From: Candidatus Berkelbacteria bacterium
GTDB taxonomy: Bacteria; Patescibacteriota; UBA1384; JACPKC01
Direction: 5' to 3'
Length of the DNA: 35,699 nucleotides
NCBI GenBank assembly: GCA_020429585.1
Contig: JAGQLE010000009.1
Location: 1-35,699 of the forward strand
The notes beneath the pieces are model-generated. The model made no database searches. It saw only the letters and a program-made list of their open reading frames with translations, and was not told where the DNA came from. Of this stretch, positions 8,729 through 12,370 are shown piece after piece (within the stretch, counting starts at the first letter, position 1; each line of letters begins with the position of its first letter). Both the position numbers and the translations under genes were made by a program.

Positions 8729-9106
8729 TTAGTTTGAACGCTTAAACATTATTGCTAGCTCGGCAAATAACATTGCCAAAACTAAAAGAATCACTTCCCA
8801 CCAGCTTAAACCAGTCAAAAACCACAGGGAAGCAAGCACTACTAATAATACTGCTACCTCGAGACCTTGTCTAATTGCATTGGCGAGTTGATAAGAGGTT
8901 AAGTTGGCCCCTGTTATGGATTTACGAATAGCGAGGCCAAAAAAGCTCAACAGAGAAGCAGTCGCTAAAACGAAACCAGCGATCAATCCGATGTAAATAA
9001 GGTTATCTGCCTGAGCCTGAGGAGTTGAAGTGATAATGCCGATTAGTAAACTTGAGCCGATCAAAAAACCCGAGGCCAAACCAGTATAGACTGAGCCTAA
9101 TCTCAT
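8729..9106 (-). CDS. Small four-helix membrane protein, unknown
   Basis: Not recognised. The 125-residue product has about four hydrophobic segments (roughly residues 8-27, 36-60, 82-100 and 104-120) and short polar loops, with a basic C-terminus (FKRSN) that would be cytosolic. No catalytic motif is visible. Its start overlaps the rbfA stop by four bases (ATGA) and pheS follows 12 bases after its stop, so it is embedded in a translation operon and should be co-expressed with it. Coding is supported by this tight packing, the intact frame and the membrane-protein composition. Confidence 0.75.
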   Translation of the reverse strand: MRLGSVYTGLASGFLIGSSLLIGIITSTPQAQADNLIYIGLIAGFVLATASLLSFFGLAIRKSITGANLTSYQLANAIRQGLEVAVLLVVLASLWFLTGLSWWEVILLVLAMLFAELAIMFKRSN

Positions 9107-9423
9107 AGATTATCCAAGATTTCTTCCACTTTGGTAATTGTATCACCTTCACGATCAGCCCTAAACTCCAAATTAGGTATCGTTTTCCAAGGTAATGATT
9201 TTTTTATTTCGTCCTTAATTCGACGAGATTTGGAGTTTAAAGTATCTACGTAACGATCAATTCCATTCCTAGCGCCAAGAGTAATAATAGCCTGTCCCAA
9301 ATCCCTGGTGACACTTGCCGAGGTTACTGTTAATAAATCTTCGCTCTGAAAGTTACTTTGAAGCCATCGGCTGACAACGCGCTGGAGCTCTCTATTGACT
9401 TGCTCCATTCGATGACTGGACAT
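9103..9423 (-). CDS. rbfA: Ribosome-binding factor A
   Basis: KH-like assembly factor for the 30S subunit that acts on the 5' end of 16S rRNA. The 106-residue product starts SSHRMEQVNRELQRVVSRWL, typical of RbfA, and keeps the central TVTSASVTRDLGQAIITL strand-helix region and the C-terminal LPWKTIPNLEFRAD segment. Length is slightly below the usual 110-130. It lies 18 bases after rpsI and overlaps the membrane-protein gene by four bases. Confidence 0.93.
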   Translation of the reverse strand: MSSHRMEQVNRELQRVVSRWLQSNFQSEDLLTVTSASVTRDLGQAIITLGARNGIDRYVDTLNSKSRRIKDEIKKSLPWKTIPNLEFRADREGDTITKVEEILDNL

Positions 9424-10207: not shown

Positions 10208-10606
10208 CTACTTAGCACCCTTCGATTTCGATTTAACTTTAACAGGGGCCTTGTCTACAATCGCTAAAACTACTACTGGTGACGCATCGCCAACGCGGCT
10301 ACCAACCTTTAAGAGTCGAGTATAACCACCCTCTCGACTTTTAGCTCTAATAGCCAGGTCATCGATCAATTTATCAACCAACTCCCGATCCTGAATAAAA
10401 CGATAGAGTCGTTTGCGATAAGCTAAAGAATCCTCAGCCAAATTAGCTTTCTTAGCAAGAGTAATCCAGCGCTCAACGACACGACGTGCCGCCCTAGCTC
10501 TGGGCAAGGTTGTCTTAACTTTCTCAGCCTTAATAACCGACTTAGCTAAGTTAGCTAGCATTAATTCGCGGTGGCTTTTTGTTCGACCAAGCTTAGGATT
10601 AATCAT
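10208..10606 (-). CDS. rplQ: 50S ribosomal protein L17
   Basis: Large-subunit protein bL17, 132 residues. The start LGRTKSHRELMLANLAKS and the GGYTRLLKVGSRVGD segment identify it. The C-terminus adds a short lysine/serine tail (KVKSKSKGAK). Its ATG overlaps the rpoA stop by one base (TAATG), which also shows that rpoA really ends there. Confidence 0.97.
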   Translation of the reverse strand: MINPKLGRTKSHRELMLANLAKSVIKAEKVKTTLPRARAARRVVERWITLAKKANLAEDSLAYRKRLYRFIQDRELVDKLIDDLAIRAKSREGGYTRLLKVGSRVGDASPVVVLAIVDKAPVKVKSKSKGAK

Positions 10607-11373
10607 TACTTACTCTTTTTGGCTGTAGATTTCTTTGTCTTTTTGGCCTTAGTTTCTTTGGGCGCAGCTTCACCAGCAGCTTTAGTTGCACCGTCCAAAA
10701 CAAATTGAAAATGTTCGACCAAGATCTGTGAGGCATATTTAACTGCTTCAGCTGGAGCTACAGTACCATCAGTTGTTAGTTCTAAGGTTAATTTGTCGAA
10801 GTCGGTCTGTCCGCCAACACGAGTATGTTCTACATCGTAATGAACTTTTTTGATCGGGGTAAAGATCGAATCAATTGCTAGGGTTCCGATTGGCAGCTTC
10901 TCATCGCTATTCTTACTAGCTACCGTAACGTAACCACGGCCCTTTTCAATTACAACTTCCATGTTCAACTTACCGTCTTTCTCAAGCGTAGCTAAGTGAT
11001 GATCAGGATCTGCAAATTCAATATCCGAATTAGGCTCAAAGTCCGATACCTTAACTTCGCCACCCTTTTTCTTAAGCTTAATAGTAACTGGCTCCGCTGA
11101 TTCTGAGCGAACGCGCATCGACTTAATATTAATAATCAACTCAACAACGTCCTCACGCATGCCTTTTAGGGTTGAAAACTCATGATCAACTCCTTCAATC
11201 TTAATATAAGAAGCAGCTGCACCCTCTAGAGAGGTTAAAAGAACCCGCCGCAAAGAATGACCCAAGGTCATGCCATAACCAGGCGACAAAGGCTCAATGA
11301 CGAATTTAGAAACTCGATCAGAGATCTTCTCCTCGGTAATGCTAAGATTCTCAGTAGTTGGTAGTGTAAACAT
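10606..11373 (-). CDS. rpoA: RNA polymerase alpha subunit without C-terminal domain
   Basis: Scaffold subunit whose dimer nucleates assembly of beta and beta'. The 255-residue product contains the complete N-terminal domain (FVIEPLSPGYGMTLGHSLRR, KGMREDVVELIINIK, HVEHTRVGGQTDFDKLTLEL-type region, AVKYASQILVEHFQ) up to about residue 230. The normal flexible linker and helix-hairpin-helix C-terminal domain (which makes a typical alpha about 310-330 residues) are replaced by some 25 residues rich in Lys, Ala and Thr. rplQ starts at the stop codon, so there is no hidden continuation. The expected consequence is no UP-element contact and no alpha-CTD-dependent activation. Confidence 0.97.
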   Translation of the reverse strand: MFTLPTTENLSITEEKISDRVSKFVIEPLSPGYGMTLGHSLRRVLLTSLEGAAASYIKIEGVDHEFSTLKGMREDVVELIINIKSMRVRSESAEPVTIKLKKKGGEVKVSDFEPNSDIEFADPDHHLATLEKDGKLNMEVVIEKGRGYVTVASKNSDEKLPIGTLAIDSIFTPIKKVHYDVEHTRVGGQTDFDKLTLELTTDGTVAPAEAVKYASQILVEHFQFVLDGATKAAGEAAPKETKAKKTKKSTAKKSK

Positions 11374-11385
11374 ATTTCTCCTAAG

Positions 11386-11988
11386 TTATCTTGAGTAGAA
11401 CTCAACGATTAACTGCTCTTCAATATCCAAAGCAATTTGGTCTCGCTCTGGCAGATCCAAAACTTCACCTTTTAGACCGGTTTTTGGACGCTTAAGCCAA
11501 ATTGGAACCTCATTCTGAGAGGGTTTGCGGTTGATTTTATGTAGTTCGATTTTTTGCTTAGGCTTGATGTTCATTGAAGGAATAGACTGTCGAATTCCAT
11601 CTACTAGAACATGACCATGCGTAACATACTGTCGAGCCTGGCGTCGTGTGTCGGCTAAACCAAGACGATAAACAATGTTGTCTAATCTTAATTCCAGGAG
11701 TTGAACAAGTTTTTCACCGGTATTGTCATCTGACAAAGAAGCCTTTTTATAGTAATTACGAAACTGACGCTCTAAGATGCCATAGATAGCCTTAGCATTC
11801 TGCTTTTCGCGGAGCTGCCGACCGTATTCAGAGATCTTATTAGGTCGACGATTTGGACCATGAACTCCAGGAGGATACGGACGTCGGGTTAAAGCATTTT
11901 TTGGCCCACTACTCCGTTCACCCTTCAAAAAAAGATTGACTCGGGCTCGACGACTAATTCGTTCGGTTGGACCAATATATCTTGCCAT
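11386..11988 (-). CDS. rpsD: 30S ribosomal protein S4
   Basis: Primary 16S rRNA binder uS4, 200 residues from the ATG at 11988 (MARYIGPTERISRRARVN). A longer reading from an ATG at 12033 would overlap rpsK by 44 bases and add 15 non-conserved residues, so the shorter start, one base after the rpsK stop with AAGGGTG before it, is preferred. The S4 RNA-binding domain is visible (RLDNIVYRLGLADTRRQARQ, HGHVLVDG). The N-terminus has no CXXC pair, so this is a zinc-free S4. Confidence 0.96.
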   Translation of the reverse strand: MARYIGPTERISRRARVNLFLKGERSSGPKNALTRRPYPPGVHGPNRRPNKISEYGRQLREKQNAKAIYGILERQFRNYYKKASLSDDNTGEKLVQLLELRLDNIVYRLGLADTRRQARQYVTHGHVLVDGIRQSIPSMNIKPKQKIELHKINRKPSQNEVPIWLKRPKTGLKGEVLDLPERDQIALDIEEQLIVEFYSR

Positions 11989-11989
11989 A

Positions 11990-12370
11990 TTACACCCTTC
12001 TCGGTTTCTTTTGTCGAACGCCGTTATGAGCAATCGGGGTAATGTCTTGAATTGAACTAACTTTTACACCCGATCCGCCAACTGAACGGACTGCCTGTTC
12101 GCGACCGCTACCTACACCACTTACAAAAATACTAACTTCCTTCAAGCCATATTCCTTGGCTTTGTCTAGAGCAGCTTTCATTGCAGTTTGGGCAGCATAA
12201 GGAGTGGCCTTACGAGCGCCCTTAAAGCCCTGGTTACCTGCACTCGACCAAGCAATAACATTACCAGTTGCGTCAGTAATTGTAATGATAGTGTTATTAA
12301 AAGTAGATTGAACATAAATACGTCCAACGGCTACATCTTTAATATTCTTTTTCTTTTTTGGAGCTGCCAT
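11990..12370 (-). CDS. rpsK: 30S ribosomal protein S11
   Basis: Small-subunit platform protein uS11, 126 residues. Typical are [48 protein letters not shown] and the C-terminal [17 protein letters not shown]. In most bacteria the last motif reads TPIPHNGCRPPK, so the Pro and Cys are replaced here. It lies 15 bases after rpsM and one base before rpsD. Confidence 0.97.

Follow-up and report, generated by a model that had tools for sequence, protein, structure and literature searches.

The C-terminal domain (CTD) of the RNA polymerase α subunit is essential for viability in Bacillus subtilis and is thought to be so in Escherichia coli (PMC4495994). α subunits without this domain have been described in ‘Candidatus Hodgkinia’ and ‘Candidatus Tremblaya’, as stated in PMC8321222, which also cites the CTD-less α of the Euglena chloroplast and holds a one-sentence statement on loss of the domain in Parcubacteria, members of the same phylum as the genome studied here. 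PMC4508563, cited as reference 68 beside the remark on Parcubacteria, has a main text that does not mention RNA polymerase, rpoA or the α subunit. Our literature search, which covered few subscription journals, found nothing on the α-CTD in Berkelbacteria, on the tail described below or on the ω subunit of Patescibacteria.

Here, we describe the rpoA locus in a window of 35,699 nucleotides, the whole stretch of DNA that was analysed, which comes from a genome of 790 kb (99.1% complete) belonging to the class of ‘Ca. Berkelbacteria’. The α subunit encoded there retains the N-terminal domain (NTD) and carries a short lysine-rich tail where the linker and the CTD would be expected.

An α subunit reduced to its N-terminal domain

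The initial annotation delimited rpoA correctly and left its strand unstated; the gene is read on the minus strand, which encodes 255 residues without a stop, while the plus strand of the same interval is full of stop codons (Table 1). The NTD, which had been called complete, is indeed present with its α fold, PF01000 being matched over the full model (positions 1-119 of 119) and PF01193 also over its full length. The flexible linker and the α-CTD (PF03118) of canonical members are missing: PF03118 is unmatched in RpoA even at E ≤ 1, and the NCBIfam rpoA models, of 298-344 positions, align to the protein only up to about 230-255, in agreement with the claim that it ends at residue 255 without this domain. 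The last 17 residues are KETKAKKTKKSTAKKSK.

The AlphaFold2 model of RpoA, based on an alignment of 42 sequences, has a mean pLDDT of 91.9, with values mostly between 92 and 98 for residues 11-230, decreasing to 85 at residues 151-160, and a last helix that spans residues 207-235. The tail, for which a structure prediction had been recommended, is unstructured in this model, the last 20 residues having a pLDDT of about 57-60 and no secondary structure. The best Foldseek matches of the model are RNA polymerase α chains, with TM values of 0.80/0.90 against the α subunit of T. thermophilus. The assembly half of the protein is predicted to be intact, and the tail to be unfolded.

Table 1. Positions in the window of rpoA, its domains and the genes discussed in the text
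Feature	Positions	Strand	Basis
rpoA, RNA polymerase α without C-terminal domain, 255 aa	10606-11373	-	ORF, Pfam, NCBIfam, AlphaFold2, Foldseek
α-NTD dimerisation domain (PF01193), residues 27-222, interrupted by the insert domain	10708-11295	-	Pfam, AlphaFold2, Foldseek
α-NTD insert domain (PF01000), residues 57-172	10858-11205	-	Pfam
Lysine-rich unstructured tail, residues 236-255, instead of linker and CTD	10609-10668	-	AlphaFold2, K+R rank
TAATG, rpoA stop and rplQ start, one-base overlap	10604-10608	-	sequence
rplQ (L17), intact	10208-10606	-	Pfam, NCBIfam
rpsD (S4), neighbour upstream of rpoA; true start may be internal	11386-12033	-	Pfam
rbfA	9103-9423		
ORF of 125 aa between rbfA and pheS	8729-9106	-	no Pfam match
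pheS, 230 aa	8024-8716	-	
pheT, 649 aa	6078-8027	-	

The locus keeps the usual order of the α operon, rpsM-rpsK-rpsD-rpoA-rplQ. As the initial annotation had noted, rplQ starts at the stop codon of rpoA, with TAA at 10608-10606 and ATG at 10606-10604, and because of this overlap and of the intact L17 no frameshifted remnant of the CTD exists downstream, so that a frameshift or a downstream remnant is ruled out. A PF03118 search of the whole genome, which had also been proposed, was carried out in six frames at E ≤ 10 and detected no α-CTD; its single match, at 14.8 bits, falls in a protein of 689 residues that reads as an NAD-dependent DNA ligase, and nine bacterial controls, including E. coli and B. 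subtilis, exceed the cut-off in the same search. As the sole match is LigA-like, a CTD encoded elsewhere in the source genome is ruled out as well, and the gene is not one half of a split α with its CTD in trans, since a separate CTD gene is absent. RpoA is the only α subunit detected in this cell, and it is an NTD-only form.

Elsewhere in the window, the phenylalanyl-tRNA synthetase looks trimmed when its two subunits are aligned to their models: PheS aligns only to model positions 67-322, without the N-terminal arm, and PheT aligns from position 156 of 798.

Loss of the CTD in the class and across Patescibacteria

Both other genomes of the source family encode α subunits (67% and 62% identical) that likewise lack the CTD, which shows that the form is not an assembly error, and full-length rpoA in other families of the class dates the loss; the comparison with sister genomes suggested by the initial annotation therefore upholds its reading of the gene. 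Among 55 genomes of the class, the α subunit is without the CTD in 30 and with it in 22, and the PF01000 search found no rpoA in 3 of the 55. In a class tree built from the α-NTD, L17, S4, S11 and S13 with outgroups, 29 of the 30 CTD-less rows, representing 13 families, fall in a single clade (support 98/93), and the CTD label changes three times, as opposed to 19 times when shuffled. This single supported clade argues for one old loss of the domain. The thirtieth row (G008) stands apart from the clade and marks a second loss elsewhere in the class. The lineage of the source genome thus combines a retained NTD, a CTD absent from both rpoA and the genome, and a state that is fixed across its members. 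In one α subunit (L028, genome G014), a degenerate CTD matches PF03118 at 17.9 bits, below the cut-off, and is a possible intermediate of erosion.

An artefact of assembly, frameshift or annotation, or a CTD supplied in trans, is an extremely improbable explanation of this pattern. Standalone PF03118 proteins do occur in some relatives (G004, G009, G039, G122 and G213), as such an explanation would allow, but it conflicts with the intact rplQ that overlaps the rpoA stop codon, with the six-frame search of the genome, and with the presence of the same form in both family sisters and across 13 families; for the source genome it is refuted within the limits of a 99% completeness.

A fusion of a sigma-70 region 4-like HTH with an α-CTD is seen in two standalone proteins (L135:1130-2233 in G004 and L313:263-1663 in G091), the region 4 match being marginal in L135 and strong in L313, and in a third protein (L138:2732-3340) the CTD alone is recognised. 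These proteins are possible regulators that would bring a CTD in trans; the source genome has none of them. In family f75 (L328, L336 and L342; G122 and G213), the α subunit is almost tailless, and separate CTD-bearing proteins of 158-241 residues are found in two of the four genomes examined, making a replacement in trans conceivable there.

At the level of the phylum, a PF03118 match above the cut-off was found somewhere in 238 of the 287 sampled Patescibacteria, so that a recognisable CTD is missing in at least 49 (17%), and the α-NTD was found in 282. A phylum tree of 114 rows (64 without and 50 with the CTD) shows nine changes of CTD status, at least six of them forced by well-supported branches; since, outside the class, CTD-less rows were picked for lacking the domain, these counts are events in the chosen sample and not rates. 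The status of the domain has changed in the phylum at least six and probably nine times, and part of these changes could be regains via gene transfer. One old loss at the base of a clade that spans at least 13 families of the class is accompanied by similar losses elsewhere in Patescibacteria.

The lysine-rich tail and its possible role at promoters

The initial annotation treated the tail as a mere absence, a view that the comparison among relatives amends, as a lysine-rich tip is recurrently found in the place of the lost domain. RpoA ranks second among 712 ORFs of the source genome for the share of K+R in its last 17 residues. A K+R fraction of at least 0.35 in the last 20 residues is reached by 75% of 64 CTD-less α subunits versus 5.9% of 51 α subunits with the CTD, counts that are raised by kinship among the rows; in the ORF sets of four genomes, about 4.5-11% reach this value. 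Three neighbouring ribosomal proteins from the same loci, compared in the same way between CTD-less and CTD-bearing rows, are free of such an excess, with 28 versus 40% for rplQ, 0 versus 0 for rpsD and 8 versus 5% for rpsK.

In relatives that keep the CTD, the linker is acidic (net charge of -4.9, K+R of 12%), and the basic tip is therefore not a simple leftover of truncation; the reading of the whole tail as remaining acidic linker is disfavoured by this composition. CTD-less tails of at least 30 residues are acidic in their NTD-proximal part and basic at the tip (-0.08 versus +0.27 per residue; p=9e-7, with rows treated as independent though related). Moreover, an AT-hook-like motif, [KR]RGR[PKT], is present in 5 of the 64 CTD-less tails versus 2 of 1701 background ORFs (p=1e-6, also with related rows treated as independent). 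The five tails (L051, L108, L286, L287 and L294) all lie outside the class, and the AT-hook motif, with its R-G-R-P core in a basic context, is absent from the tail of the source RpoA. The tail is absent or non-basic in 11 of the 64 CTD-less α subunits, four of which come from one family, and so is not strictly required. On the phylum tree, almost every lineage that lost the CTD shows a basic tip, and the exchange of the CTD for a basic tail seems to have occurred several separate times across the phylum. Compositional evidence of this kind suggests that the lost CTD has usually been replaced by a basic tip and not merely removed, a pattern that is new here.

We favour, with confidence that is evenly balanced, a model in which an NTD-only α, the product of an old loss, bears a tail that serves as a functional DNA-holding replacement. 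The NTD would dimerise and nucleate α2-β-β′ assembly as usual, and σ70 would locate the -35/-10 core promoters, while the recognition of UP elements and the activators that contact the α-CTD would, from general knowledge, be gone. Acting from the tether point formerly used by the CTD, the tail would be a flexible arm whose lysine-rich tip contacts promoter-upstream DNA non-specifically and, in some relatives, in an AT-hook-like manner through the minor groove. A functional replacement, and not debris, would be the most likely nature of the tail. That the basic tip has taken over part of the tethered DNA-holding role of the CTD is a proposal we put just short of an even chance, and we regard as tentative the wider view that a folded, sequence-sensing α-CTD may have been replaced several times independently, throughout Patescibacteria, by a disordered basic tail gripping upstream DNA.

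As some ribosomal proteins have lysine-rich termini, contact with RNA or the ribosome is equally possible by composition. In a rival account, the basic tail binds these partners, in transcription-translation coupling or recruitment, instead of promoter DNA; its composition resembles that of ribosomal-protein extensions, and other C-termini among the most K/R-rich of the genome include ORFs of ribosomal-protein operons. This account is improbable, however, given that the AT-hook-like motifs of five relatives point to DNA and that the tail is tethered where the DNA-binding CTD used to be.

The initial annotation had also predicted a very simple transcription mode driven by core promoters, which is plausible. 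CTD-less genomes do retain -35/-10 promoter motifs of the TTGACA/TATAAT type, but an upstream A+T footprint of the UP-element type was absent, judged against shuffled controls, from two CTD-bearing genomes as well as from two CTD-less ones, so this part of the comparison does not set the CTD-less genomes apart. Strong TTGACA/TATAAT-like boxes precede 16S in many of 18 rRNA loci from both kinds of genomes, and inspection by eye of this small sample revealed no clear difference between them. The source genome encodes two sigma factors, RpoD of 375 residues and an ECF-sized protein of 183 residues, and counts of sigma-70 region 2 do not obviously separate genomes with and without the CTD.

The missing footprint, not found even in two genomes that keep the CTD, is in line with a serious though rather unlikely rival, a simple reductive loss in which activators and UP elements went, the CTD followed, and the tail was left idle with lysines that reflect the drift of a small genome. 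Endosymbionts with reduced genomes are known to have lost the CTD (PMC8321222), proteins of the CRP/FNR type are reported missing in CPR (PMC12531629), and some CTD-less α subunits are nearly tailless (L285, L288, L291 and L309). An idle tail is harder to reconcile with a composition far from the genome background and unlike the acidic linker of CTD-bearing relatives, or with the recurrence of the basic tip in nearly all lineages of loss.

The ω subunit was considered as a compensating subunit and set aside, being undetected in both CTD-bearing and CTD-less groups: a PF01192 search at E ≤ 0.01 found none, either in the class (55 genomes) or across the phylum (78 genomes), while 14 of 14 controls matched. 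Patescibacteria appear to be without ω, or to have one too diverged for this model. If a DNA-holding tail has indeed replaced the CTD, with ω also undetectable, few known multisubunit polymerases of cells would be as small or as little regulated as this enzyme.

Comparison with known α subunits

A CTD-less α is already known, and the recurrent substitution of a basic tail for the domain is a pattern that, as far as our search indicates, may be unreported; the remark on Parcubacteria in PMC8321222 gives no distribution, phylogeny or tail. An old, non-organellar clade that lives without the α-CTD offers a natural test of the purpose of the domain and of the ability of a simple charged tail to substitute for it. 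Because the losses are repeated and full-length relatives stand beside them, promoters, sigma factors and regulators can be compared before and after the change in several replicates.

Compared with the canonical α of E. coli and B. subtilis, the protein has the same NTD fold, operon position and partner genes, and differs in lacking the CTD that is present there. The α of the Euglena chloroplast is CTD-less as well, but it is organellar and belongs to another lineage. The closest parallel is found in Hodgkinia and Tremblaya, where, according to PMC8321222, the NTD is also kept and the CTD lost in a reduced genome; a recurrent lysine-rich tail such as the one described here is not mentioned in the consulted passages on them. 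Whereas these two are Proteobacteria that live as endosymbionts of insects and are extremely reduced, the form described here is an old, clade-wide state of Patescibacteria with genomes of about 0.5-1.3 Mb.
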